Below are positions 29,103 to 49,991 of a stretch of 64,000 nt of DNA, in pieces. This DNA is from Lactiplantibacillus daoliensis (lineage in GTDB: Bacteria > Bacillota > Bacilli > Lactobacillales > Lactobacillaceae). Below the pieces are notes generated by a model. That model ran no database searches, was not told where the DNA came from, and saw nothing but the letters and a program-made list of their open reading frames with translations. The position numbers were made by a program, and so were the translations under genes. Numbering within the stretch: the first letter of the stretch is position 1; each line of letters opens with the position of its first letter. Location of the stretch: positions 62,001-126,000 of the forward strand of contig NZ_BJDH01000002.1 of assembly GCF_005405005.1 (NCBI RefSeq), written 5' to 3'.

Positions 29103-29254
29103 GCCGAGAGGTCGGTTTCTAAAATGCTCAGCCGTGAAATTGGTCTTAGTCTGAGTGCCCTTCTCAGGCTTAGACCAAGGTCAGTTTTGAAGACCGCCCT
29201 TTGGCTTCAAAATGGCCCATGGCGTTCCAGCATTTTAGGAATCGACTGGGAGGC
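29103..29254 (-). repeat. Structured intergenic repeat, copy 1
   Basis: An 18-bp outer helix with two G-T pairs (29111-29128 with 29229-29246) encloses two long hairpins: 16 bp with one mismatch (29140-29155 / 29163-29178) and 13-14 bp (29179-29192 / 29205-29217). Read on the minus strand the second hairpin has a 12-nt loop CCAAAGGGCGGT. Blocks of its sequence recur in the copy at 39.1 kb and, more weakly, at 49.9 kb. Confidence 0.85.
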
Positions 29255-29319
29255 GGAAAAGACCATTTTAAGCTTAAACTTCAATGACATATTTTACCCT
29301 TTTTCAACTAGAACGACAA

Positions 29320-29357
29320 AAAAGTCTACCAAACCTTTGTAGGTTCGATAGACTTTC
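29320..29357 (-). terminator. valS terminator
   Basis: On the minus strand AAAGTCTA...TAGACTTT with an inner AACCTA/TAGGTT helix, followed by TTTTTTGTC, just after the valS stop. Confidence 0.88.
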
Positions 29358-29365
29358 TGTTTTGT

Positions 29366-32035
29366 CTAAGCTTGGGCTTTAATATCAACTAATCGTTGCT
29401 TAGTGGCAACGAGTTTGCTTTCATTGTCAGCCAATTTTTCTTTTTCGCTAGCAACAACATCTTCCGGTGCGTTGGCAACGAAACGTTCGTTACCGAGCTT
29501 CTTAGTGGCCCGCGTAACTTCACTTTCAAACTTAGCCTGTTCTTTTTCAAGTTTCTTGACTTCTTCGTTTAAATCAACCAATTCAGCCAATGGAATATAT
29601 AGTTCTGCATCACTGATCACTTGTGTCATGGCTAATTTAGGTGCTTCGACATCGGCACCAATTGACAATGTCTTCGGATGAGCGAAACGGTCAATATAGT
29701 CTTCATTGGTCTTGAAGACGTTTTGCAACCGTGTACTATCTGTCTTGATCAACAGATCAACGGCTGAAGACATCTTGGCGTTAGCCTCGGCCCGAATACT
29801 CCGAACCGCTGTAATCAATTCGATCAATGACGCCATATCGCTTTCAGCAGCGGCATCATCAAATTCGGCATGTTCAACTGGGTAATCGGCAACCACTAAG
29901 GACTTGCCAACATGTGGCATCGACAACCAAATCTTTTCGGTTACGAATGGCATGATTGGGTGGAGTAAGCGTAACATTTGATCCAAAACATAGGCCAAAA
30001 CGTTTTGCGTGTTGGCTTTAGCTTGGGCGTCATCACCCGTCAAAACAGCTTTACTCATTTCAATATACCAGTCACAGAAATCGTTCCAAATAAAGTTGTA
30101 TAAGGCCCGACCAGCTTCACCAAAATCAAATTTTTCGAAGCAATCCGTCACTTGTTTAACGGTCGCATTCAAACGACTCAAAATCCATTTATCCGCTAAA
30201 GTCCATTCAGACTTAGCTGGTAAGGTTGGCTTATCCATGTCGCCTAAATTCATGATGACATAACGACTGGCATTCCAAATCTTGTTAATAAAGTTCCAAG
30301 CTGAGTCCATTTTCGTATAACTGAAACGAACATCTTGACCAGCTGTCGACCCATTTGATAAGAACCAACGTAAGGCATCGGCCCCATACTTCTTGATAAC
30401 ATCCATCGGGTCAATCCCATTACCTAAAGATTTACTCATCTTGCGGCCTTGTTCGTCACGGATCAATCCATGCAACAAGACGTTCTTAAATGGTCGCCGA
30501 CCGGTAAATTCAAGGCTTTGGAACATCATCCGTGAAACCCAGAAGAAGATAATGTCATAACCAGTCACTAACGTATTGGTTGGGAAATACCGCTTGAAGT
30601 CTTCGGCATTTTCATCTGGCCAACCCATCGTTGAAAATGGCCATAAAGCACTCGAGAACCACGTATCCAAAACATCTGGATCTTGTTCCCAATTCTCAAT
30701 GTCCTTTGGTGGTTCTACATCAACGTAAGTCTCACCAGTCTGCTTGTTGTACCATGCTGGGATTTGATGTCCCCACCAGAGTTGTCGTGAAATGACCCAA
30801 TCATGGACGTTTTCCATCCATTGATTAAAGGTGTCTTCGAAACGATCTGGCACAAAGTTAACCTTGTCGTCGCCTTTTTGGTTCTTCAAGGCCTGTTCAG
30901 CTAATGGCTTCATCTTAACGAACCATTGCGTTGACAGACGAGCTTCAACTTGAACACCCGTCCGTTCAGAATGCCCAACGCTATGGACAATTGGGTCAAT
31001 CTTGATCATCAAGTCTTGGTCTTGTAAATCTTTAACCATGGCTTTACGAGCTGCAAAACGATCCAAACCTTCATATTTACCAGCATTGGCATTCATTGAA
31101 GCATCTTCATTCATCGTGTTGATACGTTTCAAATCATGACGATTACCGACTTTAAAGTCATTAGGGTCATGGGCTGGCGTGATTTTTACCATCCCAGTCC
31201 CAAACTCAGGATCAACGTATGCATCCGCAATAATTGGAATTTTACGTTCGGCCAATGGCAAGATAACTTCCTTACCGACCAACTCCTTATAACGGTCATC
31301 ACTGGGGTTAACAGCAACCGCCGTGTCACCCATCATCGTTTCAGGACGAGTCGTGGCAATTTCAATGTAATGTTTGCCATTAAACGTATAGTCTTTATCA
31401 GCGAATGGGTACTTGACGTGGTAAAACGCCCCTTGGTCATCCTTATGAATCACTTCAATATCTGACAACGCCGTCCGAGCTTGCGGATCCCAGTTGATGA
31501 TATATTCACCACGATAAATTAAGCCTTTTTTGTAGAGGGTCACAAAGACTTTCTTAACTGCGTCAGACAACCCTTTGTCCATCGTGAAGCGTTCACGTGA
31601 ATAGTCGAGTGACAGGCCCATTTTGCCCCATTGTTGCTTGATGATTGAAGCGTATTCGTCTTTCCAATCCCAAACTTGTTGGACAAACTTTTCCCGACCT
31701 AAGTCGTAACGGCTGACACCTTGTTCCCGTAACTTAGCTTCAACCTTAGCTTGGGTTGCAATCCCAGCATGATCCATCCCTGGTAACCAGAGCGTATCAA
31801 AACCTTGCATCCGTTTTTGACGAATGATGATATCTTGTAACGTCGTATCCCAAGCATGGCCTAAATGCAACTTACCTGTCACATTTGGTGGGGGTAAAAC
31901 GATTGAATAAGGTTGTGCTTTCTTGTCACCTGATGGCTTAAATAAGCCTTCATCCAACCAAGTTTGATACCGACCTTTTTCAACAGCGGTGGGGTCATAC
32001 TTAGTTGGCATATCAGTAGTTAAATCTTCTGACAT
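29366..32035 (-). CDS. valS: Valyl-tRNA synthetase
   Basis: ValRS charges tRNA-Val. The class I signatures are [14 protein letters not shown] (HIGH box) and [10 protein letters not shown] (KMSKS box), with the editing (CP1) insertion between them ([17 protein letters not shown]). The C-terminal coiled coil (about 820-885) is the ValRS tRNA-binding arm. ATG 32035 (889 residues) was chosen because an AAAGGATGG site lies 6-7 bases upstream; the longer frame to 32062 contains that site. It is controlled by a Val T-box. Confidence 0.97.
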
Positions 32036-32062
32036 ATGGGTCCATCCTTTCATTTTTGGCAC

Positions 32063-32448
32063 GAAAAAAGCCTATTCTCCTAAATTAACATTAGGACGAA
32101 TAGACTTCGCGGTACCACCTAAATTTAAAGAGCGTTATCAGCGACGAACAGCTACCGAGCATTGCCTAGCTACTGATATGATGCGCTTTTGGCATTCTAT
32201 CAGTAGCGTAGCAAGCACAGGTCGCTGTCGCTGATAGCGCGTTTCGGCAATTTAGCTTCGCCACGCTACTCTTCACACTTAAACATTATTGTTAACGAAC
32301 GGCGTATCCGTCCGGTCGACCCTACTCAAGTTTCAGGTCAACAGCTCGCAAGCTACCTTCACTTAAAAACACATCAAAAACTTACAGCACCGTTTTCTTT
32401 CTGAGGACGTATCTTTAAGTTACTCTCTTGCTCATTGCTTGAATGTTC
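32063..32448 (-). promoter_or_regulatory. valS T-box leader (Val, GUA specifier)
   Basis: On the minus strand: Stem I with AGTA loop E and specifier loop GAA-G-GUA-G (GUA at 32354-32356), T-box AGGTGGTACCGCG at 32108-32120, and a competing terminator at 32069-32105 with a T-run. Uncharged tRNA-Val should favour read-through into valS. Between Stem I and the T-box lies a large nested palindrome (separate entry), which makes the leader longer than usual. Confidence 0.93.
32132..32240. repeat. Nested palindromic element inside the valS leader
   Basis: A 14-bp outer helix with one wobble (32132-32145 / 32227-32240) encloses a perfect 10-bp helix (32169-32178 / 32198-32207), whose apex on the minus strand is AUG-CCAAAAGCG-CAU. 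The loop start CCAAAA resembles the 12-nt loops of the intergenic repeats in this window. Confidence 0.75.
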
Positions 32449-32450
32449 CT

Positions 32451-32479
32451 ATTGTAATCAATTTATAATCGGGCGTCAA
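32451..32479 (-). promoter_or_regulatory. valS leader promoter
   Basis: On the minus strand TTGACG (32474-32479), 17 bases, TACAAT (32451-32456); it abuts the end of tpx. Confidence 0.85.
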
Positions 32480-32482
32480 TGC

Positions 32483-32977
32483 TTATTCAAATTGCTTGAG
32501 GGCATCTAAAGCCGCAACATAATTTGGTTCGTGCGTCATTTCAGGGACAATTTCGTGATAAACGACTTTACCTTCAGCATCAACGACGTAAATCGCGCGT
32601 GCTAACGTCCCGTTATTTGGCAAGTATAAATTGGTGGCATAACCAAAGGAAAGCTCTTCATCTGAAACGACCGTCAAATTTTTGACGCCTTCCTTAGCAC
32701 ACCAGCCAGCTTGATCCGCAATTGAATTGTTCGAAACGGCCAAAAATTGGATATGTGGATACTGGTCGGCCTGTTGATTAAACTTCTTCGTCTGAATGGA
32801 GCAGACCCGAGTATCGATATCGGGCATGACACTAATCAACGCGGGCTTGCCTAAAAGATCTTTGGTCTTGAGTTTCTCATTATGCGTTGTGAACACTTTA
32901 AACTTAGGTAATTCAGCACCATCTTTTAAAGGTTCTCCAACTAAGTCTAACGGCTGATCATGAAATAATACTTGCAC
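32483..32977 (-). CDS. tpx: Thiol peroxidase
   Basis: Tpx reduces peroxides with a thioredoxin-linked Cys pair. The 164-residue peroxiredoxin has the peroxidatic Cys in SVMPDIDTRVCSIQTKKF and a resolving Cys in DQAGWCAKEG, as in atypical 2-Cys Tpx. GTG 32977 (MQVLFHDQP) was preferred because GAAGGGG is 8 bases upstream; an in-frame GTG at 32986 overlaps that site. It stands alone. Confidence 0.93.
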   Translation of the reverse strand: MQVLFHDQPLDLVGEPLKDGAELPKFKVFTTHNEKLKTKDLLGKPALISVMPDIDTRVCSIQTKKFNQQADQYPHIQFLAVSNNSIADQAGWCAKEGVKNLTVVSDEELSFGYATNLYLPNNGTLARAIYVVDAEGKVVYHEIVPEMTHEPNYVAALDALKQFE

Positions 32978-33014
32978 AGCAAACACCCCTTCAATAACTT
33001 GATTAAGCTAACGA

Positions 33015-33031
33015 CTACTAGTTTGACTAGT
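33015..33031. promoter_or_regulatory. Palindrome upstream of tpx
   Basis: TACTAGT-TTG-ACTAGTA is a perfect 7-bp inverted repeat about 40-55 bases before tpx. On the minus strand it overlaps CATACT, a possible -10, so it may be an operator. No factor is assigned. Confidence 0.4.
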
Positions 33032-33182
33032 ATGCTTCAAATGTACCGCAAACTGGAGTCGGTCGCAAACAATAACTTTAAAATTCCCCGAATTATTGCT
33101 AGCGGTTCCCATCAAAGTCATTTTGGCATTAGCTTGGTCCATATAAATATCTTTATTATTATCGAAAATTAATTCAGTTGCT

Positions 33183-33223
33183 AAAAAAACTCGTTTCGGC
33201 TTTTTAGGCTGAAACGAGTTTTA
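33183..33223. terminator. thiI terminator
   Basis: AAACTCGTTTC / GAAACGAGTTT stem (10-12 bp) with a short extra helix near the loop and a T-run on the minus strand, about 30 bases after the thiI stop. Confidence 0.85.
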
Positions 33224-33252
33224 AGCTAAGCTATTTTGATCGGCAAGACAAT

Positions 33253-34470
33253 TTACAGTAGTTCTGCAAACACATCTTCCTGGGTATTCATATAGTTCTC
33301 GCCCGGTTTGATTTCCGTAATCTTGATGCCAGCCATCGCACGCTGCATTAAACCTTCAACGTCGATGCGTTCTTCATAAGCACGCGAACGATCAAGTTTT
33401 GGATGCGTCTTTGGTGCTGGTGGCGCAAAGATCGTACAGCAATCCTCAAATGGCATGATTGACAAGTTATACGTATCGATCTCTTCCGCAATCTTAATGA
33501 TTTCGGTCTTATCCATTGAAATAACTGGGCGCAATACAGGCAATGCCGTGACATCGTTGATAGCAATCATACTATCCATCGTTTGTGAAGCGACTTGGCC
33601 TAATGATTCACCATTGAAAATAGCTTTCCCATGCCGTTCGCGGGTAACGGCATCCATCAAACGCATCATCAAACGGCGTTGAACAGTCATCAGATAACCT
33701 TCGGGCACCTTTTCTTTGATTTCTTCTTGGATTTCCGTGAATGGAATCTGGATGAATTTCACACTACCAGAATAACTTGCTAAGGTAGAGGCTAATTGCT
33801 TAGCCTTGGCGAGCGCTTGTTCACTCGTGTATGGCGGACTGAAGAAATGTACCATTTCCATATTTACGCCACGCTTCATGCCCAAGTAACCGGCAACCGG
33901 CGAATCAATCCCACCAGAAAGCATCAACATCCCTTTACCGGCAGTGCCAACGGGCAACCCACCGGCACCTTGAATGGTTTCGGATGATAAGAAGATCCCG
34001 TTAGGACGAACCTCTACACGGATTACAATGTCTGGTTGCTTCATTTTTACTTGAATACCGTCGACGTGATCTAAGATTTGACCACCTAACATATCATTGA
34101 TGTCATTCGTATCATATTCAAAGTTATGATCAGAACGGCGCGTGTATACCTTAAACGTCATTCCAGGTTTGAACTGGGCGCGTACCATTTCAATTGCGGT
34201 TTCATAAACCGCATCCATGTCTTGGGGCACCCGGATACTTGGTGAGAAGTTTTGAATCCCAAAAACTAATTTCAAGCGGCCAATGACCTTGGTAGCATCC
34301 TCACCATTTAAGGCAATGTGCATTCGGTCACGGTCAGCGTGAACCTTCAGTTCTGGGAAATCGTGCAGTGCTTTGCGGACGTTGCGGCCTAAACTGTCGA
34401 TAAAGTTACGTTTGTTCTTCCCTTTAGTCGAGAGTTCGCCGTAACGCACCATAATTTCAGTGTATTGCAT
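33253..34470 (-). CDS. thiI: tRNA 4-thiouridine synthetase ThiI
   Basis: ThiI adenylates U8 of tRNA and inserts sulfur (and feeds thiazole synthesis in some bacteria). The 405-residue protein has the NFLD/THUMP region (about 1-165) and a PP-loop ATPase with [14 protein letters not shown] (about 180-195). As in most Firmicutes it lacks the C-terminal rhodanese domain, so the sulfur must come directly from the desulfurase encoded next door. It lies 18 bases after nifS, in one operon. Confidence 0.96.
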
Positions 34471-34488
34471 GGCATTAGTTCCTTTCAG

Positions 34489-35643
34489 TTAAGCGTCTGC
34501 ATTAATTTTAGAGAATCGCTTATATAATTTATCAAAGACACGGTTAAATTCATCCGCTTCAGCTAGCGTGTTGTTTTCATCCAGACTAATCCGAATGGCA
34601 CTCGTCGCGATAGCTTCAGGCGTATTCATCGCCATCAGCGTGCTGGAAGCCAAGTGTTTCTTCGACGAGCAAGCACTCGTCGTTGAAATATAAATCCCTT
34701 GATCTTCAAAAGCATGCACAATGGTCTCACCACGCACCCCATTAATCGTGAAACATAGAATATGTGGTGCAAAGCCGTCCGTTGGTTGGCTAAAAATCGT
34801 GACCTTGTTGAATTCCTTGATGTGGTCATACACCCGTTGCTTAATGGCCCGTTCGCGAGCAACTTTTTCGGTTTCATCCGTTAATAAGAGTCGTAACGCT
34901 TTCGCCATACCGGCAATGGCAGGCACATTTTCGGTTCCAGAACGCCAATTGTTTTCTTGGCCACCACCGGTCATCAGCGGCGCCAACTTACGGCCAGAAC
35001 GCGCATAAATAAACCCAACGCCGCGGGGCGCATGAAATTTATGACCAGAAAATGTCACAAAATCAACCCGATCGTTCATGATCATCTCTTGGATGCCTTT
35101 ACCAATCCCTTGAACCGCATCAATATGAAAATGAATCTTTGGATATTGTTTTAAGACGTCCGCCACTTCGGTTAAAGGTTGAATCGTCCCGATTTCATTA
35201 TTCACGGCCATGACAGAAACCAAGATCGTATCTGGTCGAATGGCGGCTTTCAAGTCATCGATTGAGATTCGACCTTCCTTATCAACGGGTAAATAAGTCA
35301 CGTCAAAGCCGAGTTCTTCTAATTGCACCATTGAATTATGAATGGCTGGATGTTCTACAGCAGTCGTAATCAGATGTTTACCAAACGTGCGCTTCGCCGT
35401 GGCTGTCCCTTTGACCACCCAATTGTCGCCTTCCGTACCACCCGAGGTAAAGAAGATTTCGTAAGGCTTGGCACCCAGTAAGTCTGCAATTTGCTGACGT
35501 GACTGTTCCAATAAATGAAAAGCTGTTTCGCCAAAATTGTGCAAACTAGATGGATTACCCCAAACCTTTTGTGAGACGGTCGTATAGGTCTCTAATACTG
35601 ATGGTGCAACTTTTGTGGTTGCACTATTGTCGAAATAAATCAT
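34489..35643 (-). CDS. Cysteine desulfurase (NifS/IscS-like)
   Basis: A PLP enzyme that removes sulfur from cysteine. The 384-residue protein has TSGGTEGDNWVV, HAVEHPAIH, the PLP lysine in FSGHKFHAPRGVGF, and the catalytic cysteine in STTSACSSKKH. The long mobile loop resembles group I (IscS-type) enzymes. Its position directly upstream of thiI indicates that it supplies the persulfide for tRNA thiolation (the NifZ role in Bacillus). Confidence 0.94.
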   Translation of the reverse strand: MIYFDNSATTKVAPSVLETYTTVSQKVWGNPSSLHNFGETAFHLLEQSRQQIADLLGAKPYEIFFTSGGTEGDNWVVKGTATAKRTFGKHLITTAVEHPAIHNSMVQLEELGFDVTYLPVDKEGRISIDDLKAAIRPDTILVSVMAVNNEIGTIQPLTEVADVLKQYPKIHFHIDAVQGIGKGIQEMIMNDRVDFVTFSGHKFHAPRGVGFIYARSGRKLAPLMTGGGQENNWRSGTENVPAIAGMAKALRLLLTDETEKVARERAIKQRVYDHIKEFNKVTIFSQPTDGFAPHILCFTINGVRGETIVHAFEDQGIYISTTSACSSKKHLASSTLMAMNTPEAIATSAIRISLDENNTLAEADEFNRVFDKLYKRFSKINADA

Positions 35644-35706
35644 TCTAAAGCCTTCACTTTCCCTAAAAGCCGTGCCTACACGGTCTTTCGATAAGAATTC
35701 TTTGCA

Positions 35707-35734
35707 ATTATACCAAATAACGACACTGAAACAA
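35707..35734 (-). promoter_or_regulatory. nifS-thiI promoter
   Basis: On the minus strand TTGTTT (35729-35734), 16 bases, TATAAT (35707-35712). A small hairpin (CCGTG/CACGG, 35670-35683) lies in the leader. Confidence 0.75.
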
Positions 35735-35755
35735 GCATTTTTGTTTTGACGCCAA

Positions 35756-35783
35756 GCAAAAAGCCACCTTTAACAGTGGCTTT
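35756..35783 (-). terminator. ezrA terminator
   Basis: On the minus strand AAAGCCAC-8-GTGGCTTT followed by TTG, 10 bases after the ezrA stop. Confidence 0.85.
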
Positions 35784-35792
35784 AATGACGGC

Positions 35793-37505
35793 TTATGACG
35801 GTTTATCAGCTTGCTTCTGGGTATAATAACTATCTTCGATCCGCTTATAAGCGCCTGCGTCAATTTTATCAATCGCCGTTGCAATCACTTCTAAGCTGCG
35901 TGCGTAGTCATGTTCTTCATTGAATAACCGTTGCGCTTCCACACTTGCTGCTTGGACCTCTTCATGATTCGTTTTGTACCGATTGGCATATTGTAACAAC
36001 TGTTCAGACAATACGGCTGAGTCAATTAAATCGGTCGTCTTCTCTTTCAAAGTTGCCATATCCGCCTGAATCACAATTAATTGTTTCGTAATATCATCCA
36101 TATTAATAACCAACTTATTAATATCATGATCTAAGCGCTCAATTTCCTTGGTCACAACCATGAAATAGTCGAGATAATCTTTCGGTAATCCAGGTAAGTT
36201 CAAGTTCTCCACTTGCCGCTTAACCGCATGAATTTCAAAGTCAAAGCGTTGCAACGTGTCATGAGCCTTAGCTTCTTCAGCCGCTAATCCGGCAACGCTG
36301 TCGTTAATGGCAACCTGTTCGGACTCAATGCCGGTCAATTGCTTATCTTGTTCCGCATAGTGATTGGAAATTTGGCTAAATACCGCCTGATTCGTAGTCA
36401 AAGCCGTTGTGTCAGCCTGATAAACATCTTGAATATTTTTTAGTTGTTCCCCTAACTCACGGGTCCGTTCAACTTCGTGATCATTTAACGTATAACTCTG
36501 TGCCAACCGATCTAATTCCACTTGTAACCGTTGATTTTGATTCGTGGCATGGGTCAAAAATTGACTGATTTCGTCTTGTTTTTGATCCACAACTGCTTTA
36601 GCGTCAATTTCAACCTGCATCACGTCGTATAAATGGTCAATTCGTTTTTCAATTGCGTGATTACCTGCCTCAGCGTCTGAGACCTTTAATTCGCCTAACA
36701 ACTTAATGTTATCATCAATCGCCTGCGTCAAAGCGTGAATTTCTGGTTCAATCTTCGCCACTTCAAAATGGAAATGCTGGTCAATCAATTGATGGTAACC
36801 TGTTTCAAGTTCATTTAACTGATCTGGGAAGCCACTGACAAGATCCTTGTAAATCGGTGGCACCCGATCAATATCCATTTCTAGAGAACTGGTGTCATGA
36901 CGCAACTTATCCAATACTTGTTCCGCTGCATCATGATCCCCAGCCTTGGCGAGTTGAGAAAACTTGTCAAAATCATTTTCCAAGTTTGCCAATTGATCTT
37001 CCAGTTGGTCAATACTCGGTCCAAATGAAAAGTTTTGCGACAGCAACGTTTTACGCAAGTCCTGATATTTCTTTTCCAAACTAGCAACAGCTTGACGATG
37101 AGCTTGGTCAGCCGCGTCTAACGCCTTTAACCCTTCGTTGATCGTCCCAATCTTGGTTTCAATCACCGTTAAAGACTGTTCAACTTTTTTAATGTTCTGA
37201 TTAGCGTCCAAAAATTTAATACTGTGGGCGGCGGCAGTAATTTCGGTCAAGCGTTCATCAATGGCTGGCAAACGATCATCCCGTAAGACCTGTCCATCAT
37301 TTTGCAGTGTTTCTAGTTTTGCCAGTGATCCGCCGGTCAAACCGAGACTTTCAATTTTTTCAAAGTCGGTCGCTTGAACTTGCTCGACTAACGCTTGTTT
37401 CTGTGCCGTTAACTGTCGAACTTGTTTATCTATGTACAGTTGAAAGCCCTTGATCGCAGCGTAAATCACAAGCGCGACAACCACAATACCGATTGCTACT
37501 TGCAT
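35793..37505 (-). CDS. ezrA: Septation ring formation regulator EzrA
   Basis: EzrA is a membrane-anchored spectrin-like protein that modulates FtsZ rings. The 570-residue protein has one N-terminal span (about 4-20) with a short outside tail, then almost entirely helical coiled-coil sequence rich in Gln, Asp, Leu and Ala. Length and topology match EzrA. ATG at 37505 has AAGGGG 7 bases upstream. It is monocistronic and divergent from the msr gene. Confidence 0.93.
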   Translation of the reverse strand: MQVAIGIVVVALVIYAAIKGFQLYIDKQVRQLTAQKQALVEQVQATDFEKIESLGLTGGSLAKLETLQNDGQVLRDDRLPAIDERLTEITAAAHSIKFLDANQNIKKVEQSLTVIETKIGTINEGLKALDAADQAHRQAVASLEKKYQDLRKTLLSQNFSFGPSIDQLEDQLANLENDFDKFSQLAKAGDHDAAEQVLDKLRHDTSSLEMDIDRVPPIYKDLVSGFPDQLNELETGYHQLIDQHFHFEVAKIEPEIHALTQAIDDNIKLLGELKVSDAEAGNHAIEKRIDHLYDVMQVEIDAKAVVDQKQDEISQFLTHATNQNQRLQVELDRLAQSYTLNDHEVERTRELGEQLKNIQDVYQADTTALTTNQAVFSQISNHYAEQDKQLTGIESEQVAINDSVAGLAAEEAKAHDTLQRFDFEIHAVKRQVENLNLPGLPKDYLDYFMVVTKEIERLDHDINKLVINMDDITKQLIVIQADMATLKEKTTDLIDSAVLSEQLLQYANRYKTNHEEVQAASVEAQRLFNEEHDYARSLEVIATAIDKIDAGAYKRIEDSYYTQKQADKPS

Positions 37506-38992: not shown

Positions 38993-39035
38993 GTCTTTCG
39001 AAACTTGCTGGATTGTGCTTCAGTTGCCGCCTGCC

Positions 39036-39177
39036 GGGCAAGAAAATTTAGAGCTGGAACATGGTAGCGCGTTTTCGAGCCAAAATGTGGTCTCGAAAGC
39101 CACGCTTGGCCCAAACCGCCGGTAACCCACTGCCAGCTAAGGCCAGCTTCACCACTGAGCCCTAAATTTTCCCGCCC
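39036..39177 (+). repeat. Structured intergenic repeat, copy 2
   Basis: A 20-bp outer helix with three A-C mismatches (39036-39055 / 39158-39177) encloses a 9-bp hairpin (39071-39079 / 39092-39100) with the 12-nt loop CCAAAATGTGGT and a second, less perfect hairpin (about 39105-39147). Shared blocks with copy 1 (minus strand) include GCTGGAAC, GCCAAA, CTTGG, CTAAG-CCA and CTGAGC, in the same order. Confidence 0.85.
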
Positions 39178-39218
39178 TCTCGTCTCGCTCTGTATCAACC
39201 CAAGCAATTTAACATATC

Positions 39219-42764: not shown

Positions 42765-42773
42765 TGCTATAAT
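42765..42773 (+). promoter_or_regulatory. rarA promoter (extended -10)
   Basis: TG-C-TATAAT 34 bases before the start codon; no clear -35. Confidence 0.65.
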
Positions 42774-42806
42774 AATTAAGACTAGTTTTTTTGTAAGGAG
42801 GTTACT

Positions 42807-44087
42807 ATGCAACAACCATTAGCCTATCGTATGCGTCCTAAAACAATTGAAGAAGTTGTTGGACAACAGCACTTAGTTGGCCCCGGTAAAATCATTGCCA
42901 GAATGGTGAAGGCCAAGCGCTTATCTTCAATGATTTTATATGGCCCACCGGGTACTGGTAAAACCAGTATTGCCAGCGCCATTGCGGGTTCGACTAAATA
43001 TGCGTTTCGCATGTTAAACGCCGCAACCGATAGCAAAAAACAACTGCAAATCGTAGCTGAAGAAGCTAAAATGAGCGGTACCGTTATCCTGTTATTGGAT
43101 GAAATCCATCGTTTAGATAAGACGAAACAAGACTTTCTGTTACCCCATTTGGAAAGTGGCCGCATTATTTTAATCGGAGCAACAACTGAAAATCCCTACA
43201 TCAGCATTAATCCTGCGATCCGTAGTCGGACGCAGATTTTTGAAGTCCACCCCCTTGGTCCTGACGACATTGAAGTCGCTATCAATCGCGCGTTAACGGA
43301 CGATGAACACGGTCTCGGTCAATATCAGGTTGAACTAGAACCGGCTGCCATGCACCATTTATGCACAGCAACCAATGGTGACTTACGAAGTGCCTTGAAT
43401 GGATTGGAGCTAGCGGTGCTCTCTACAACCGACGACGCCAAAACTGGCATCACCATTACGCAATCAATTATCGAGGAATGCCTGCAGAAAAAGGCGCTCT
43501 CCGCCGACAAAGACGGTGATGCGCATTACGACGTCATTTCCGCGTTTCAAAAATCCATTCGTGGCTCTGATGCCAACGCTGCCCTTCATTACATGGCGCG
43601 TTTGGTCGAAGCCGGTGACCTCAAAAGTATCATGCGCCGGCTGATGGTCATTGCTTATGAAGACGTTGGTTTGGCCAATCCAGCCGCCTGTGAACACACC
43701 GTTGCGGCGTGTCAGGCTGCCGATCAATTAGGGTTACCAGAAGCCCGAATACCACTAGCTAATGCAGTCATCGAACTCGCGTTATCGCCAAAATCAAATT
43801 CAGCCATGGCTGCGATTGATGGCGCTTTGGATAAAGTTCGTAGCGGACATTTTGGGGATATTCCCGCTGATCTAAAGGACGCTCACTATTCAGGCGCCGC
43901 AAAACTGGGGCACGGTGTCGGCTATGTCTACCCACATGACCATCCTGGTGATTGGGTCGCTCAACAATATCTGCCAGACTCAATTAAAAGCGCCAAGTAT
44001 TACCAGCCTAAGGCCAATGGTCGCTATGAAACTGCGCTTGGTGAGCAATATAAAAAATTATTAAAGGCAAACCAAAGTAACCGTTAA
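42807..44087 (+). CDS. rarA: Replication-associated recombination protein RarA
   Basis: RarA (MgsA) is an AAA+ ATPase of the clamp-loader type acting at stalled forks. The 426 residues include YGPPGTGKTSIASAIAG (Walker A), ILLLDEIHRLDK (Walker B), and GATTENPYISINPAIRSRTQIF (sensor 1 and arginine region). The C-terminal tetramerisation part contains AFQKSIRGSDANAALHYMARL and PKSNSAMAAIDGAL. RBS AAGGAGG. Monocistronic; no terminator was recognised before the next promoter. Confidence 0.95.
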   Translation: MQQPLAYRMRPKTIEEVVGQQHLVGPGKIIARMVKAKRLSSMILYGPPGTGKTSIASAIAGSTKYAFRMLNAATDSKKQLQIVAEEAKMSGTVILLLDEIHRLDKTKQDFLLPHLESGRIILIGATTENPYISINPAIRSRTQIFEVHPLGPDDIEVAINRALTDDEHGLGQYQVELEPAAMHHLCTATNGDLRSALNGLELAVLSTTDDAKTGITITQSIIEECLQKKALSADKDGDAHYDVISAFQKSIRGSDANAALHYMARLVEAGDLKSIMRRLMVIAYEDVGLANPAACEHTVAACQAADQLGLPEARIPLANAVIELALSPKSNSAMAAIDGALDKVRSGHFGDIPADLKDAHYSGAAKLGHGVGYVYPHDHPGDWVAQQYLPDSIKSAKYYQPKANGRYETALGEQYKKLLKANQSNR

Positions 44088-44110
44088 CATCCTTACCATC
44101 AGTACAATCG

Positions 44111-44139
44111 TTGCAACTTTTATTTTAATATGCTAGACT
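44111..44139 (+). promoter_or_regulatory. Promoter of the Lacto-usp RNA
   Basis: TTGCAA (44111-44116), 17 bases, TAGACT (44134-44139) preceded by TG (extended -10). The start would be near 44147. Confidence 0.8.
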
Positions 44140-44146
44140 AATAGTC

Positions 44147-44337
44147 GAAATTACTAAGGTGTGCGCATTGCTCTAAACAAAGTGTTGCCGAACAATTAAT
44201 ACTACTTTGGGACTGTCTTTAGGTAGCCATCATAACATGCCTTATCATTTGGTAGTTAGGAGGCTATACAGCCGGTCCCACCTGCCTTGAAGCGGGTCAA
44301 TACTGAAGGGCGACTAACGGCACTACTAGTTTTTTTC
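44147..44337 (+). ncRNA. Lacto-usp RNA, possible 6S RNA
   Basis: About 190 bases lie between a good promoter and a T-run at 44330-44337. The ends can pair (ACTA...GTGC with GCAC...TAGT), leaving a large interior as in 6S RNA. Established knowledge: the Lacto-usp motif occurs only in lactic acid bacteria, upstream of operons with a small hypothetical gene and a usp gene, and has been suggested to be their 6S RNA. Exactly that gene order follows here. I assigned it by context and size, not by a covariance model. Confidence 0.6.
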
Positions 44338-44353
44338 GGAAGGTTACTTCCGT

Positions 44354-44380
44354 GGGTCAGGACTTGTCCTGGCCCTTTTT
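44354..44380 (+). terminator. Terminator after the Lacto-usp RNA
   Basis: A 10-bp stem (GGGTCAGGAC / GTCCTGGCCC, one wobble) with a 2-nt loop and five Ts. Confidence 0.85.
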
Positions 44381-44390
44381 GTTTGACTGC

Positions 44391-44501
44391 AATTGAGGAC
44401 ATTTTGAGACCGACACAGCCAGTGGAAGCCTCAGTCTGCGCGAACACGTTACGACTATTCAAAAAAAGCGACAGCCGTTGTTGCAAATGTCCGAACCAAT
44501 T
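44391..44501. repeat. Long-range inverted repeat in the usp leader
   Basis: GGACATTT (44397-44404) and AAATGTCC (44485-44492) pair perfectly; AATTG (44391-44395) and CAATT (44497-44501) extend the helix across a small internal loop. The enclosed 80 bases have only weak local pairing. Position is between the RNA terminator and the small membrane gene. Confidence 0.5.
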
Positions 44502-44547
44502 CGATCTAAAAATTTAGATACAACAAACTTCACTAGGAGGTTCCAAC

Positions 44548-44823
44548 TTGATCACCCTACTTTTAATCGTCTATACCTTAATCGCCGCGTGGCTTGGTTA
44601 TTACTTAGTTACCCATCAAAATAAACAATTTCTCACTTTCGATCCCACCGAGTCGACAACCGTCCAACATGTTGCCCGCTATGGTGGTCGTTTAATGCTA
44701 CTGGTTGCAATCGGAAGCGCCATCACTATTTTCTATCAAAGTACCGTCGTGATCGCGTTGGTGCTTGCTAGCGGTTGCTTAATTATGATGGCAATTGGCT
44801 TACTTCTCATCAGTTTCATGTAA
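44548..44823 (+). CDS. Small membrane protein upstream of usp
   Basis: A 91-residue protein with three hydrophobic spans (about 3-22, 45-63 and 68-90) and a short polar loop (THQNKQFLTFDPTESTT). The family is unknown to me; it corresponds to the small hypothetical gene that habitually sits between the Lacto-usp RNA and usp in lactic acid bacteria. The TTG start has a strong AGGAGG 7 bases upstream, so it is a real gene. It precedes usp by 65 bases. Confidence 0.8.
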   Translation: MITLLLIVYTLIAAWLGYYLVTHQNKQFLTFDPTESTTVQHVARYGGRLMLLVAIGSAITIFYQSTVVIALVLASGCLIMMAIGLLLISFM

Positions 44824-44894
44824 ATTGAGAGAAAACGCTTTTTATTTTTTACGAAAACCTTTACAATATAGGTATAAAGTATTGAGGGGTGAGA

Positions 44895-45380
44895 ATGATG
44901 TTACAACAATACCAACACATCTTAGTTCCCGTAGATGGTTCTTACGAAGCGGAATTAGCATTTAAAAAGGCGGTCGCCGTTGCCAAACGAAACGGCCCCA
45001 AAGCGTCAGTTCATATGGTGCATGTCGTAGATACCCGTGCATTCCAGAACATCTCTAGTTTTGATACAACGATGGTTGAACAAGTCACCGATACTGCCCA
45101 AAAGACATTAGATAAATACGTCGAAGAAGCAAAGTCAGAAGGCTTAGACAACGTCGATTATTCTATCGAGTATGGTGCGCCAAAGACCATTATCGCACGC
45201 GATGTTCCTAAGGATTTAGGCATTGATTTGATTATGATCGGTGCGACTGGGTTGAATGCGGTTGAACGGCTCTTGATTGGTTCAGTCACAGAATATGTCA
45301 CTCGGATGGCAGTTTGTGATGTTCTCGTCGTTCGGACTGATTTGGAAAACAAACCAGCACCAAAACCTAAGAAGAAGTAA
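44895..45380 (+). CDS. Universal stress protein (UspA family)
   Basis: A 161-residue Usp domain. It begins HILVPVDGSYEAE and ends with the ATP-binding signature G-2x-G-9x-G-S (GATGLNAVERLLIGS) followed by VTRMAVCDVLVVR, so nucleotide binding is expected. A Lys-rich tail follows. ATG 44895 was taken; GTG 44889 lies inside the GAGGGG ribosome site and ATG 44898 is a close alternative. It is in the Lacto-usp operon. Confidence 0.92.
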   Translation: MMLQQYQHILVPVDGSYEAELAFKKAVAVAKRNGPKASVHMVHVVDTRAFQNISSFDTTMVEQVTDTAQKTLDKYVEEAKSEGLDNVDYSIEYGAPKTIIARDVPKDLGIDLIMIGATGLNAVERLLIGSVTEYVTRMAVCDVLVVRTDLENKPAPKPKKK

Positions 45381-45394
45381 TTAAATAGATTATA

Positions 45395-45453
45395 AAAGGA
45401 CATCATGACGATTTTCATTTTTGAAAATTTTGTCATGATGTCTTTTATTTTTG
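45395..45453. terminator. Bidirectional terminator after usp
   Basis: A 14-15 bp stem (AAAGGACATCATGAC / GTCATGATGTCTTTT) enclosing an AT-rich loop with its own small helix. It divides usp from the convergent lipoprotein gene. Confidence 0.88.
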
Positions 45454-45477
45454 CATTTTAAATCAATTTAACTGCTA

Positions 45478-46251
45478 CTAAGGCTTTTGTACGGTCCCAT
45501 CTGGATAGACTATCCAGTAATAGCCATCCGGATTCATAAACACCCAATTCCCATTATCTAGCTCTCTTATCGCTAAGGTGTTATAAGTATAACCACCGAA
45601 ATTATTAACCCAATTCACACTCTCACCCAAAATATTTTTTGCCTCTTGTTCAGTTAGCTCGTCGCTCTCATCATCAGTAGTCGTATCATCACTGCTGGTT
45701 GTATCGTCACTACTAGAGCTCTGATCATAATAACCCGTTACATTCTTGTTTTCCTTGGCCAATTTTGAATCACTCAAATTTTTGGAACTTGCTTTATCAT
45801 GTTTGAAGTTCGCATAGGCAAGCTTGTTTTTCTTATTCAAGTATTCAATGATACCGTCACCAAGCGTCCCTTGTGCTGGGATTTTCTCAAACAGCTGATT
45901 AACCGTTTTAGTTTGTTTAGGCTGAACAGTCAGAATTCCCTTCTTTTTAGAAAATGTTTTATCAACAGGTAATAAATAAATAAATTTGGACTTATCAAAT
46001 TTAATACCCTTTTGACTATTATTTGTCACTTTCATTGAGACAACATAAACAGGGTCTGCCTTCGAGTCCTGAGTCTCGTCCTGCTCAAGACTAAACGTAA
46101 AGTTAACCTTCTTTTTATCCGATTTACTTAAATCTTGGTAGTACACAGTCTTCGTTACAGCATTGTTCTTTGCTAAATGACCTTGAGTTAAACTACAACC
46201 CGACAGTAATAGTGCAATTCCAATTACCATGAAGCCCAAAACTTTTTTCAT
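45478..46251 (-). CDS. Lipoprotein of unknown function
   Basis: A 257-residue lipoprotein: MKKVLGFMVIGIALLLSGC with the lipobox Cys at 19. The middle (about 30-150) looks like the Ig-like DUF4352/DUF5067 fold (VSMKVTNNSQKGIKFDKSKF, LTVQPKQTKTVNQLFEKIP). An acidic Ser/Asp/Thr linker follows (about 175-195), and a short C-terminal domain with repeated aromatic-Gly turns (NPDGYYWIVYPDGT). It is the last gene of the zinc-ribbon operon and more AT-rich than the core genes around it. No function can be given. Confidence 0.75.
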   Translation of the reverse strand: MKKVLGFMVIGIALLLSGCSLTQGHLAKNNAVTKTVYYQDLSKSDKKKVNFTFSLEQDETQDSKADPVYVVSMKVTNNSQKGIKFDKSKFIYLLPVDKTFSKKKGILTVQPKQTKTVNQLFEKIPAQGTLGDGIIEYLNKKNKLAYANFKHDKASSKNLSDSKLAKENKNVTGYYDQSSSSDDTTSSDDTTTDDESDELTEQEAKNILGESVNWVNNFGGYTYNTLAIRELDNGNWVFMNPDGYYWIVYPDGTVQKP

Positions 46252-46266
46252 CTTTATTATTCCCCA

Positions 46267-46932
46267 CTACTTAAAATCATTTTGATAGGCATCATTCAAA
46301 TTAGAAATATGATCACTATAATAATCAATGGACATCTTATCTGACCAGGCGTATGGATTGTTCCCAATAATTGATGTGTGGACCTTCTTGCTAATATATG
46401 AATACCATTTAACATTATTGATATCAATGGCCATCGGTGCCTTCCTATTGCCATTTCCAACAGCAATCAAGTAACAATAATGAATTTTGCCATTTTCACC
46501 TTTTTTTACCGGGAAAACATACTTTCCTGTTCGCTTATTTTTATTCAAAAAGACCACATAGTCCTGCGCCAAAAATTCGTCACGATGATAGGTCCCATAA
46601 TAAAAGACTGCTGAATTTAGAGTTGGAGAAGCATATTTTAAAATGGACGTCTCATTGGTCTGACCCTCAGGCAGGTAAGTCTTGTATTGATAAAATCCCC
46701 AACTACCCAGAATAATAACTGCGATTGCTACAATCCACAAAACAATATGGTGATTTGGTGTCTCAACTACCTGACTGGTTGAAACTTGTTCAACTTTTTC
46801 AGGTGTATTAACTTTCTCTATAGGTGCAACAGATTCGCTGGACACACCGATTACTGGCTGCTCAGCACCACAAAACGGACAAAAATTAGTCGACTCCTTA
46901 ATTTGCTTCCCACAATTAACGCAAAATTTCAT
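46267..46932 (-). CDS. Zinc-ribbon membrane protein, single span
   Basis: A 221-residue protein. Residues 1-28 form a zinc ribbon, with CVNC and CPFC knuckles (MKFCVNCGKQIKESTNFCPFCG). One membrane span lies at about 68-86. The C-terminal outside domain (about 100-221) begins with SPTLNSAVFYYGTYHRDEF, and its family is not recognised. Topology is cytoplasmic zinc ribbon, span, outside domain. It sits between the PrsW-like gene (38 bases upstream) and the lipoprotein gene (16 bases downstream). Confidence 0.75.
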   Translation of the reverse strand: MKFCVNCGKQIKESTNFCPFCGAEQPVIGVSSESVAPIEKVNTPEKVEQVSTSQVVETPNHHIVLWIVAIAVIILGSWGFYQYKTYLPEGQTNETSILKYASPTLNSAVFYYGTYHRDEFLAQDYVVFLNKNKRTGKYVFPVKKGENGKIHYCYLIAVGNGNRKAPMAIDINNVKWYSYISKKVHTSIIGNNPYAWSDKMSIDYYSDHISNLNDAYQNDFK

Positions 46933-46969
46933 TTTTTCTCCTCCAAAATTCCATCATAATTACCTTAAC

Positions 46970-48079
46970 CTAATTATGACTAGGCTGATCGACGCTGACC
47001 TGTTTTAACGTGCGCACCTCACGTAGTCCAGCATTGATTAACACCAACACCACTACCCACGCAATCACGATTAACAGCACCATTTTTTCATAATCAAAGC
47101 CTACCGGCGCATCCCAAAGTGCGTGTAAGGCAATGGCAATCACGAAGAAGCGAATAAAGCGACCATCTTCAAACGTTGCCGAACTTAACCGAGCACTGCC
47201 TTTGGCTAAACCGAGTGCTGCACCAACCATGGCGCACCACATTGTATGTGTGCCTAACGCACCAACACTTCTAATCAACAAGACCGACAAGCCCATATCG
47301 CCCGCATACCCAGCTGTCTCAAACGTAGCAAAGCCAGCACCAATGGCCGCGCCGATTAACAAACCGTTCAACACAAATTTGGTGTCAATCCGATTGATAT
47401 AATACGCAATCATAATTAACTTACCCGTCTCTTCGACAACGGCAATGATCACGGCAGTCAGGATTGTTAATTTAGAAACATCTACAAATTCATATAAAAA
47501 TAGTGAAACCAAAAGCGAGGCCACGCCACCAACCATAAATATTTTTGTAATTTTAAAAACACTAATATTTTTAAAAGTGTTAATTTCAAAAAACATGATT
47601 AACAATGAAAACGGCACTGCCAACGCGCTCACAGCGATTAACCCAACGTACATCTTTTCACCATTCAACAAATAGAAACTACCCACTAAAATTGCCACTG
47701 CGATGACAAATGAAGCCAAGACCCGTGAAAATAGCCATGGCTTAACCGGTGAATCGCTTACTTCAGTCAACGTCGGCGTGGTTTGCGCTGTCCCCGCAAT
47801 AAACAACGACTCCGCTTCTTGTTCCGTATGCGAGTTGAATACTTCGCTAAACATACGCTTCAAATGGATCGGAACGCGTTTCTGTTCACCAGTCCAGCCG
47901 TTCAGAGTTTCCGTGGCAGAATCAATCAAACTCTTTTGCGCCGGTTTGGACGTCTGCACGATTGTTTTTGGTTGTGGTGCTTCAGCGACTCTGACAACCT
48001 TGGCGCCACAATAGTGACAAAACTTCGACTCACTTGGTAACTTTTGACCACAATTTGCACAATAAATAAACTCATTCAT
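46970..48079 (-). CDS. PrsW-like intramembrane protease with N-terminal zinc ribbon
   Basis: A 369-residue protein. The N-terminus is a zinc ribbon (YCANCGQKLP...FCHYCG). The C-terminal half has about eight spans with PrsW-family motifs: VAVVEETGKL-type EE (here AVVEETGKLIMIAYY), GFATFETAGYA, and HALWDAP. These supply the Glu and His residues thought to bind metal in PrsW proteases (PF13367). In Bacillus, PrsW cuts an anti-sigma factor during antimicrobial-peptide stress; no anti-sigma gene is seen here. ATG 48079 was chosen at the zinc ribbon; a longer frame starts at 48097 and overlaps the preceding stop. Confidence 0.85.
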   Translation of the reverse strand: MNEFIYCANCGQKLPSESKFCHYCGAKVVRVAEAPQPKTIVQTSKPAQKSLIDSATETLNGWTGEQKRVPIHLKRMFSEVFNSHTEQEAESLFIAGTAQTTPTLTEVSDSPVKPWLFSRVLASFVIAVAILVGSFYLLNGEKMYVGLIAVSALAVPFSLLIMFFEINTFKNISVFKITKIFMVGGVASLLVSLFLYEFVDVSKLTILTAVIIAVVEETGKLIMIAYYINRIDTKFVLNGLLIGAAIGAGFATFETAGYAGDMGLSVLLIRSVGALGTHTMWCAMVGAALGLAKGSARLSSATFEDGRFIRFFVIAIALHALWDAPVGFDYEKMVLLIVIAWVVVLVLINAGLREVRTLKQVSVDQPSHN

Positions 48080-48096
48080 CTTAAATAGCACTCCCA

Positions 48097-48657
48097 TTAA
48101 CCAAAACGATTTGGCTGTGGATCACTTGGCTTACAGAACAAGACAATTACCAAAATGGCGCCAACTATCGGTATCAGGGCAAGCCAATAGTAGCCAAATG
48201 AATGGTTTGAATCATGTAGCCGACGACTAGCGACGGCTAAACTAGGAACCAAACAAGCCACCACCAAAATAATCATCAAAGCCATCCCAATATATTCACT
48301 TAAAAACAAATAGATTAAATAAAAAGCGCTATAAAAGAGATTGTAAACCAATACACTCCACCAGTATTGTGATCGACTACTGCGGCCATGAAACTGAGCA
48401 TACCGCTTAAAATAATCCCGCATTGCGGCATCAATCCCACCGCTATCCTGTTCCTCATACCTAGTCTCTGTCCGTCTCTCAGTCTGACCCGATTGACTAT
48501 TAGGTACCTGCTGATTAGTCACTGTCGGCTGTGGCGTAACAACCGTTTGTGCCGGAGAACCTGACGTAGCTGTTCCTTCAACCAGATTCAACCCGCAATT
48601 AGGGCAAAAACGTGCCCCCTCCACTAACTTCGTGCCACATTTAGGACAAAATTTCAT
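48097..48657 (-). CDS. DUF805 membrane protein with N-terminal zinc ribbon
   Basis: A 186-residue protein: an N-terminal zinc ribbon (FCPKCGTKLVEGARFCPNCG), a Thr/Gln/Ser-rich linker (about 30-70), then a DUF805 domain with YAQFHGRSSRSQYWWSVL, three to four spans, and the diagnostic RRLHDSNHS motif. Its function is unknown. The ATG start has GGAGGAAT upstream. It is the first gene of the zinc-ribbon operon, reading away from the divergent XRE regulator. Confidence 0.85.
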   Translation of the reverse strand: MKFCPKCGTKLVEGARFCPNCGLNLVEGTATSGSPAQTVVTPQPTVTNQQVPNSQSGQTERRTETRYEEQDSGGIDAAMRDYFKRYAQFHGRSSRSQYWWSVLVYNLFYSAFYLIYLFLSEYIGMALMIILVVACLVPSLAVASRRLHDSNHSFGYYWLALIPIVGAILVIVLFCKPSDPQPNRFG

Positions 48658-48906
48658 GATACTATTCCTCCATTGTATTACTTTTGCGAACAAGCAAATC
48701 CAATTAATTTCCTCAAAAAAAACGACAATTGCTTATTCCAAAAGCAATCACTTTCTTTGATAGCATTGAATTATCAAGTTAAAACCATTCTTTTTGATTG
48801 GCCTGAATATTCGCACAGCTATATTGAATTATAATTTTTGTGTTTTACTTTAGCAAGCGTTTTTATTGGAAATACCGTTATATCAGTGTTAGATGTTTTT
48901 TCCCAT

Positions 48907-48915
48907 TGCTATACT
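48907..48915 (+). promoter_or_regulatory. Promoter of the S24-like regulator
   Basis: TG-C-TATACT (extended -10), 22 bases before the start. The 244-base divergent spacer (48694-48937) presumably also holds the promoter of the zinc-ribbon operon; I could not fix it. Confidence 0.55.
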
Positions 48916-48937
48916 TATGTGATACAGAGGTGTTTTT

Positions 48938-49627
48938 ATGGCGAAATCTACATTTGGCGAACGATTAAAACAAATTCGTACCAATAAAGGCTATTCCGTC
49001 CGTAAGGTGGCACTTTATGGTGGAATTTCCTCATCGTACTATTCCCAAATTGAGAACAACAAACGGAACATTCCAAAACCGGAAACTTTACTTAAACTCG
49101 CTAAGGGGCTACATATCTCGCATGATGAAATCTTTGAATTGGCAAAATTTTATACCGAGACACTTCGAAGCGCGGACAAATCGTTTAGTTTCAACCAAGA
49201 AACTGAAATTAACAATTCTGGTGCCATTATCCAAAATTTGATTAACTCCAATACCAAAGTTATTCTGCCAGATGATCGTCGCGTCTATACGAACCTTTCA
49301 GCTGAATCTCCAACAACCCCAGGTGACTATGTTTGGGTGAAAGTCTCAGATGACACCTTGACCAATGAAGGAATCATGACTAATGACTTAGCAATTGTAT
49401 TGATCAAGTCTGTAGACGAGCCCTTTTCCGTTGAGTACGGTAGTAAACTGATTGCACTAAATCTCAATTCAAAAACCGTTATCCGGAGAGTCGTTCAAGA
49501 CTACGCTAACAACTTTCTAGTTTTCAATTCAAGAGAACGTACTGAACCAATAATGATTCCTAAAAATAAATTTTCTGAATTTTTAGTCGGCCTAGTCGTC
49601 GGCATCCATCGCGAGATTTCCAATTAA
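48938..49627 (+). CDS. XRE regulator with degenerate S24/LexA-like domain
   Basis: A 229-residue regulator. Residues 1-70 are an HTH (RLKQIRTNKGYSVRKVALYG, SSSYYSQIENNKRNIPKPE). The C-terminal part (about 110-229) has the layout of the S24/CI peptidase-like domain, ending LVVGIHREI. The usual catalytic Ser and Lys are not in place: the SM-type segment reads SDDTLTNEG, and the Lys strand reads TVIRRVV. Self-cleavage is therefore unlikely. It is divergent from the zinc-ribbon operon, which it may control. No integrase or phage genes are nearby. Confidence 0.8.
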   Translation: MAKSTFGERLKQIRTNKGYSVRKVALYGGISSSYYSQIENNKRNIPKPETLLKLAKGLHISHDEIFELAKFYTETLRSADKSFSFNQETEINNSGAIIQNLINSNTKVILPDDRRVYTNLSAESPTTPGDYVWVKVSDDTLTNEGIMTNDLAIVLIKSVDEPFSVEYGSKLIALNLNSKTVIRRVVQDYANNFLVFNSRERTEPIMIPKNKFSEFLVGLVVGIHREISN

Positions 49628-49674
49628 AAAGACATTGCCTTGTGACTTGTAAAATCACAAAACAATGTCTTTTC
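49628..49674 (+). terminator. Terminator of the S24-like regulator
   Basis: An 11-bp outer stem (AAAAGACATTG / CAATGTCTTTT) plus a 6-bp inner stem (TTGTGA/TCACAA), then T-rich sequence. Confidence 0.9.
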
Positions 49675-49820
49675 TATTACTTAAAGGTTGAAAAACTCAA
49701 AAGCATCACAAATGTTGCAGTACCAGTAACCATCACGTCTAAAGTAGACTCACCTAAATTTAGCGCTCCGTCAGTCGATAACGAATTTATCAAAAAAAAG
49801 AACTACTGACTTAGCTAGAG

Positions 49821-49991
49821 GTTGTTGATGATAACATCGGACGTGCAGGTGGCGTTTGGCCGGCGTTTTTTAGCCGGCCTTACACCACGGACGGTCCGGG
49901 AGATTTGCGGTTTTGGCAAAGTTTCCGGACGAGGTTCAAGACGTTTCTATGGCTTGAACCGGTCCCTCGTTCGCATGCTATCAGCAACAAC
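49821..49991 (-). repeat. Structured intergenic repeat, copy 3
   Basis: A 13-bp outer helix with one mismatch (49821-49833 / 49979-49991) encloses three hairpins: GGCCGGC/GCCGGCC (49858-49864 / 49873-49879), GTCCGG...TTTGC/GCAAA...CCGGAC (49894-49930) and a perfect 8-bp GGTTCAAG/CTTGAACC (49933-49940 / 49953-49960). On the minus strand the last has a 12-nt loop CCATAGAAACGT, like the other copies. The rest of the spacer (49675-49820) shows nothing else I recognise. Confidence 0.75.

Follow-up and report, generated by a model that had tools for sequence, protein, structure and literature searches.

Three intergenic spacers in a 64,000-nucleotide stretch of the genome of Lactiplantibacillus daoliensis (NCBI RefSeq assembly GCF_005405005.1, contig NZ_BJDH01000002.1, positions 62,001 to 126,000; hereafter the window) harbor structured elements, which a preliminary description, made from the sequence alone, had read as a single family of branched repeats with a common plan: a closing helix that encloses two or three hairpins, one of them with a 12-nucleotide loop. 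The three elements are indeed present in these spacers, and we show here that full-length copies of the two types to which they belong (types A and B) are non-autonomous miniature inverted-repeat transposable elements (MITEs), which carry a covarying branched RNA module as cargo. Loci and genomes used for comparison are given as L and G numbers, respectively.

Results

The module of copy 1 (29098-29259) lies downstream of valS and upstream of a folC-like frame, which was named by eye, and the modules of copies 2 (39025-39188) and 3 (49811-50002) lie between convergent reading frames, in agreement with the genomic context reported earlier. Copies 1 and 2, which share ordered sequence blocks according to the preliminary description, are members of the same family, type A; copy 3 is a member of a second and larger family, type B. 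The strand on which the elements had been read also had to be reversed, as the opposite one, here called the R strand, is better supported; the 12-nucleotide loops noted earlier correspond to a hairpin of the form AGAC-N8-GGCU, seen on the opposite strand. Covariance models matched copy 1 on its R strand (+) at 29109-29248 (140.4 bits, E 1.1e-29), copy 2, a solo module on the - strand, at 39036-39177 (115 bits), and copy 3, the right-hand module of a type B element (+), at 49818-49994 (196.8 bits, E 9.5e-47). A decayed second module accompanies copy 1 on the - strand at about 28990-29058, where blocks of the partner module can still be made out by eye in an alignment and no covariance-model match is obtained. 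At copy 3 the left terminal repeat of the MITE is found at 49681-49694 (+), with the consensus CTAAAGGTTGAAAG that is also that of an IS4-family insertion sequence (IS), whereas the right terminal repeat was not recognized; the left module is, by eye, mostly deleted, and the remainder represents the right half of a longer element. Element ends were not recognized at copies 1 and 2, for which we infer an IS982-type parent from full-length type A elements in related genomes.

Each of the three copies has a better fold energy than 200 of 200 shuffles on both strands, and in all three the R strand has the lower folding energy: -72.1 kcal/mol (z -9.68) on the + strand of copy 1, as compared with -51.0 (z -4.43) on the - strand; -72.6 kcal/mol (z -7.27) on the - strand of copy 2, as compared with -56.2 (z -5.33) on the + strand; and -93.9 kcal/mol (z -6.91) on the + strand of copy 3, as compared with -86.1 (z -8.39) on the - strand. 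The modules, approximately 160-190 bp in size in the window, consist of a long closing helix, the lower part of which is variable yet complementary, an internal loop, and arms, of which there are two in type A and three in both the right (B-right) and the left (B-left) module of type B. Around the internal loop of type A, the R strand carries conserved GCUCAG and GUUCCAGC, and the AGAC-N8-GGCU hairpin is common to type A (AGACCGNNNUUUGGCU), B-left (AGACCGUACUUUGGCU) and B-right (AGACGUUUCUAWGGCU). In full elements two modules stand back to back with their R strands outward, and the close pairs read off the list of A-model matches were all in this (-,+) order (16 of 16). On the R strand, the A model also recognizes the right and left modules of type B (E 6e-6 to 9e-4), which supports common descent of the three module types.

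BLAST matches in the L. daoliensis genome, selves included, numbered 17 for copy 1, 8 for copy 2 and at least 40 for copy 3 (with 40 of 108 candidates scored). The A covariance model gave 60 matches in this genome. Of these, 40 scored ≥66 bits, and the other 20, which scored 31-45 bits, lie in many cases at B loci. The B model returned 123 rows, 37 of which were counted as other-strand reads of the same places, leaving at least 86 distinct places, a lower bound since scores were computed for 150 of the 1025 candidates.

Full-length B and A elements are short, occur in multiple copies and are bounded by IS terminal inverted repeats. The limits of type B are defined by seven near-identical copies in G020 (CTAAAGGTTGAAAG ... 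CTTTCAACCTTTAG), which have a consensus of 543 bp and target duplications. In L. daoliensis, 19 of 40 type B elements retain both ends (≤6 mismatches), and the 8 bases that flank these 19 match each other at 0.586, versus 0.427 ± 0.039 for shuffled partners. The 8-bp target duplication of type B is exact in L307 and L309. Allowing at most one mismatch, the B end pattern occurs 72 times in the same genome, versus once for a reversed control. Type A elements, 388-406 bp at full length in related genomes, have IS982-type ends (ACGCTTGGTGCTAGTTG) and target duplications of 8-9 bp; both ends (≤5 mismatches) are present at 14 of 41 A loci, one (L027) among the 13 of the own genome and the remainder in related genomes, and the 9 flanking bases of these 14 match at 0.50, versus 0.345 ± 0.039 (0 of 500 shuffles). 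The elements have no transposase gene, the longest ATG/GTG/TTG frame in one full B copy being 72 amino acids. One full B element (L228, 518-1061) was also scanned for an intrinsic terminator, defined as a G+C-rich stem followed by a T run, of which 0 were found, and for promoter-like sites, all three of which in that locus lie outside of the element.

Candidate parents share these ends. B-type ends bound an IS4-family IS of 1567 bp (L306, in G020), the 457-amino-acid transposase of which scores 460 bits with NCBIfam model NF049925 (IS4 family, cut-off 250), and A-type ends bound IS982-family IS elements of 958 bp in G013 (e.g. L332), where the intact transposases score 222 and 219 bits with NF033520 (IS982 family, cut-off 130) and a third copy (L333) has a broken transposase gene. 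A covariance-model search found no module in the IS copies L306, L332, L333 and L334, and we therefore rejected the possibility that the MITEs are internal-deletion derivatives of the parent IS; the module is thus no leftover of the IS forms found, and MITEs of two unrelated IS families carry cargo of this one kind. Repeats with different flanks in G249 and G326 also carry the module.

Selection on an RNA or cruciform structure, as suggested in the preliminary description, is supported by very strong covariation and by the presence of copies in many related genomes, and covariation in both A-type and B-type modules backs the branched plan. Among 31 type A modules, 95.6% of cells pair and 36 of 51 pairs show double changes, with a covariation score of 0.595, as compared with 0.176 ± 0.010 in shuffled alignments (0 of 500 reach it) and at most 0.114 in slid structures. 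The score of 40 copy-3-type modules also exceeded all shuffles (0.104 versus 0.091 ± 0.003, 0 of 500), more weakly in this set, where copies are 93% alike. When 73 sequences from several genera were considered, 50 of 51 pairs covaried, in an alignment that leans towards structure since it was fitted to the covariance model.

A single mutation within a pair appears as G.U on one strand and as A.C on the other, and the two are expected equally often without strand-specific selection. On the R strand, G.U exceeded A.C in type A (67:23), B-right (78:24) and B-left (61:26), and also in 123 A modules from several species (245:77), a set that partly overlaps the first A set; these cells are not independent of descent. 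Such a one-strand excess in three module types favors a fold that would act as RNA rather than as cruciform DNA, the two having been left as alternatives in the preliminary description. The direction in type A holds with the fold optimized on either strand (70 against 47 with the other-strand fold). Transition bias in unpaired columns has the opposite direction in B-right and B-left and the same direction in A, so that a simple mutational strand bias would explain at most the A result. A tRNA control gave 9 G.U versus 2 A.C in six of 16 tRNAs, too small a sample after the other 10 were dropped for stem coordinates that did not fit.

Flank comparison revealed insertions common to several species, namely one upstream of a metS-like gene (identified by eye), found in four species (L029, L236, L240, L282), and the further ortholog groups L036/L259, L031/L349 and L034/L350. 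These four groups come from fetched loci, most of them selected for a high model score, which favors intact modules and may overstate conservation. In eight tip-disjoint ortholog comparisons, which have no sequence in common although the two metS pairs may overlap in branches of the tree, 358 pairs were unchanged. Pairing was kept in 15 pairs that had changed on both sides and in 17 that had changed on one side; it was lost through a single change in 15 pairs and through two changes in 3. Random re-pairing yields a mean of 0.77 double compensations, and at most 5 in 2000 trials, as compared with the 15 observed. Mean identity at the metS locus was 0.90 and 0.92 in the modules, 0.38 in the spacer between them, 0.80 in the terminal-repeat flank, 0.92 from module to start and 0.91 in the coding sequence. 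For L031/L349 it was 0.87 in both modules, 0.09 in a spacer of only 8 nt, 0.49 in the left flank and 0.83 in the right; for L036/L259, 0.89 in the module, 0.69 in the right flank and 0.91 in the left; and for L034/L350, 0.92 in module a and 0.13 in the spacer, module b being lost (0.49). The modules have thus clearly been conserved more than the spacers and most of the flanks, though not more than all adjoining stretches.

Two further arrangements were seen at shared sites. Between L034 and L348 (G000 and G013), an A module is inverted relative to its flanks, either by a second insertion or by an inversion between modules. The same spacers also seem to be occupied by different types or opposite orientations (B, inverted B, A1) across species at L059/L234/L321 and at L081/L324; we do not claim separate insertions at shared spacers as a signal, since by a rough estimate chance suffices.

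A covariance-model search of related genomes, proposed beforehand, recovered further copies in many of them. The A model matched 23 of 60 relatives, with 19 of the 21 genomes of the own genus, L. daoliensis included, and the B model matched 14 of the 60, in 2 of 34 genera. In an order-wide sample the A model matched 23 of 395 genomes and 7 of 80 genera, all within one family (E ≤ 1e-4), in a scan with stricter filters and eight candidates scored per genome, by which weak matches may be missed. G058, from another Lactobacillales family, gave seven A-type matches of 20-35 bits (E 1e-4 to 0.35). The six that were fetched (L257, L359-L363) represent a single dispersed repeat, the copies of which are 86-93% identical across 205-301 bp. 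This repeat has the plan of the module in common, including a helix of CCATG/CATGG, a strand reading UUUCCA, and a hairpin that resembles AGAC..GGCU (in two of the copies, AGATG..), and it is probably a distant relative of the module.

In plasmid and phage collections, no B element, no A1 element, and nothing for the G326 and G342 types was found. For the G249 type, 7 plasmid records matched over 24-30% of the query, and the one of these that was inspected (L358) gave no model match. A subfamily represented by L243 was found in 26 plasmid records, 19 from Lactiplantibacillus and 7 from Ligilactobacillus; among the 15 records listed, the best places span 38-49% of the query. The A model confirmed modules in pSF118-44 of Ligilactobacillus salivarius UCC118 (L356, 3037-3189, 83.8 bits) and in a plasmid of Lactiplantibacillus plantarum AWA2013 (L357, 3037-3188, 89.7 bits; L. 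plantarum subfamily member), with no feature annotated beneath either match in an incomplete plasmid gene table. One exact pattern was scanned against viral contigs and was not found.

Judged by the longest open frames, 20 A loci comprise 15 tandem, 4 divergent and 1 convergent arrangements, and 20 of 40 B loci comprise 10 convergent, 7 tandem and 3 divergent ones. At L029, L032, L037 and others, modules lie 33-128 nt before likely start sites. Another copy in the own genome is adjoined by an LDH gene, with a product almost identical to PDB 1ez4, which is from L. pentosus; this match and the L. plantarum plasmids with a related subfamily are in keeping with the genus Lactiplantibacillus.

The earlier statement that no named RNA family fits agrees with Rfam 15, no model of which matched the modules at gathering score in the loci searched. 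A permissive search (E up to 5) returned T-boxes, a Leu_leader (E 0.0011) outside the modules of L247, and others at E ≥0.18. T-box leaders are also present in the window, just upstream of valS at 32089-32444 (-, 113.5 bits) and at 22474-22705 (-, 110.6 bits). At L245, a T-box match below gathering (1206-1392, 81.6 bits versus 93) is followed by a module (1501-1644) and then by a hisS-like frame, named by eye.

Discussion

The occurrence of one fold on two unrelated transposon families in lactobacilli suggests that the RNA has its own role. The reading that we prefer, and to which we would give an even chance, is that the MITE-borne module works as RNA within read-through transcripts, probably as a binding site for a host protein, and is kept by selection. 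Action by way of read-through transcripts is inferred from the lack of promoter-like sites in the one full B element scanned. Transcripts of neighboring genes would run into the element, where the module would act as RNA, and with an inverted pair a transcript from either side would hold one R-strand module. This module may bind a conserved host protein, with the AGAC-N8-GGCU hairpin and the internal loop CA/GUUCC as likely contacts, and could, once bound, protect, process or insulate the transcript; a module useful in this manner would be kept by selection and might spread on two unrelated kinds of transposon.

Several observations weigh against this proposal. The position of the modules is not uniform, with A loci mostly tandem and B loci mostly convergent. 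A likely start codon is found at a distance of 130 nt or less for only 26 of the 123 modules, which leaves a cis-leader role for every module unsupported, and at 43 two-module loci the a-type and b-type modules that face starts number 14 versus 6, a difference within chance (p 0.12). No motif was found that points to a protein partner, and the module of copy 1 that faces a gene start is the decayed one. The shuffle z-score of copy 3 favors the non-R strand, and the wobble asymmetry of B-left is gone with the other-strand fold (41:39). In addition, some neighboring stretches are conserved like the modules (metS module-to-start, 0.92; L036/L259 left flank, 0.91; L031/L349 right flank, 0.83), and one module of an ortholog group, module b of L034/L350, has been lost.

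A wider proposal, which we put forward tentatively and hold to be possible rather than probable, is that the structured RNA domain is itself mobile, riding unrelated transposons (the IS4 and IS982 MITEs, as well as the differently flanked elements of further genera), that it is kept by selection, and that it is old, being present in several Lactobacillaceae genera and in a diverged form in another Lactobacillales family. If this is true, the mobile RNA domain would be the analogue, in bacteria, of RNA-derived interspersed repeats, and a partner among the host proteins would be implied.

The modules might instead have a selfish function and serve transposition or the control of the transposon, either as a folded transferred strand or as a transposase-modulating RNA. 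We regard this as unlikely. The R strand is the one that has its 3' end at each transposon end. That the modules lie within MITEs and that both face the ends of the element would fit such a role, as would near-identical copies in G020, G249 and G326, which indicate recent spread; however, IS4 and IS982 elements were found without modules, the same fold would be needed by two unrelated transposases, and the modules are conserved at the metS-like site despite degraded terminal repeats.

Palindromes can repair themselves, and the fold could in principle be a DNA-level structure, with cruciforms or palindromes kept by template-switch correction and no RNA function. The stems do switch between Watson-Crick pairs with few intermediates, but the excess of G.U over A.C on one strand in three module types, and the conservation of unpaired loops and mismatches that correction should have erased, make this improbable. 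Gene conversion among dozens of copies, rather than site-wise selection, is given little credence by us as the whole cause of module conservation, for although each genome holds many similar copies, and the best paralog of L031 equals its ortholog (0.873 versus 0.871) in one of six comparisons, in the other 5 of 6 identity to the ortholog exceeded that to any other a-type module of the own genome and was far above the paralog mean (0.79-0.82), and the lower stems specific to each locus are retained and differ by paired changes.

If the module is a functional RNA, as we prefer to read it, some lactobacilli, kin of food and probiotic species, have more than 100 copies of an RNA without an Rfam entry, a number of which lie in the leaders of genes, for instance of the metS-like gene. 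Where an insertion is shared between species, conservation of the modules is close to that of the adjoining coding sequence. With solo and paired modules, two kinds of ends, and species with and without them, these elements offer a clean system for learning how a transposon gains a useful RNA. The usual view is that MITEs arise from an IS by deletion, whereas here the same covarying RNA module is found on two unrelated IS families.

Comparison with known systems

The preliminary description had named a match to an already described repeat or MITE family as something that would speak against it. Such a match exists in part: the elements are MITEs with IS4- and IS982-type ends, but no paper describing them was found in searches of the titles and abstracts of a mostly open-access literature. 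Like the T-boxes, leaders and riboswitches of Rfam, the modules are structured RNA candidates near genes, and T-boxes occur in some module loci; the difference is that no Rfam model matches the modules. The Efa-1 repeats of Enterococcus faecalis, also named EFAR, resemble the modules in form, being a structured intergenic family of 163 nt with an adjacent pair of stem-loops, in a lactic acid bacterium.

The comparisons with published repeats refer to the available parts of five papers (PMC2267715, PMC1590033, PMC3049150, PMC7335449 and PMC10969869). Within those parts, the account of Efa-1 (PMC2267715) describes no branched module with an AGAC-N8-GGCU hairpin, and we set the two apart by description. 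Two surveys of stem-loop families name, in the portions available, L. johnsonii as the single Lactobacillus. The BOX elements of Streptococcus pneumoniae (PMC3049150) are likewise modular, dispersed and predicted to fold when transcribed, and one of them lies between the T-boxes of an operon, an arrangement somewhat like that of the T-box and module at L245. Compared by description, BOX is an array of boxA, boxB and boxC, unlike the inverted pair of one branched module seen here, and the available text describes no sharing of BOX by two IS families.

The IS982 family, which includes ISLpl4 of L. plantarum (PMC7335449), matches the ends of the A elements and of L332; its IS copies were found here without the module, and the words 'MITE' and 'miniature' are absent from the main text of that paper. 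The IS-derived MITEs described in the accessible part of a review (PMC10969869) resemble our elements in their IS terminal repeats, target duplications and stable transcript fold. The difference lies in what they enclose, which here is a separate covarying module, carried on two IS families, rather than a deleted form of the IS found.

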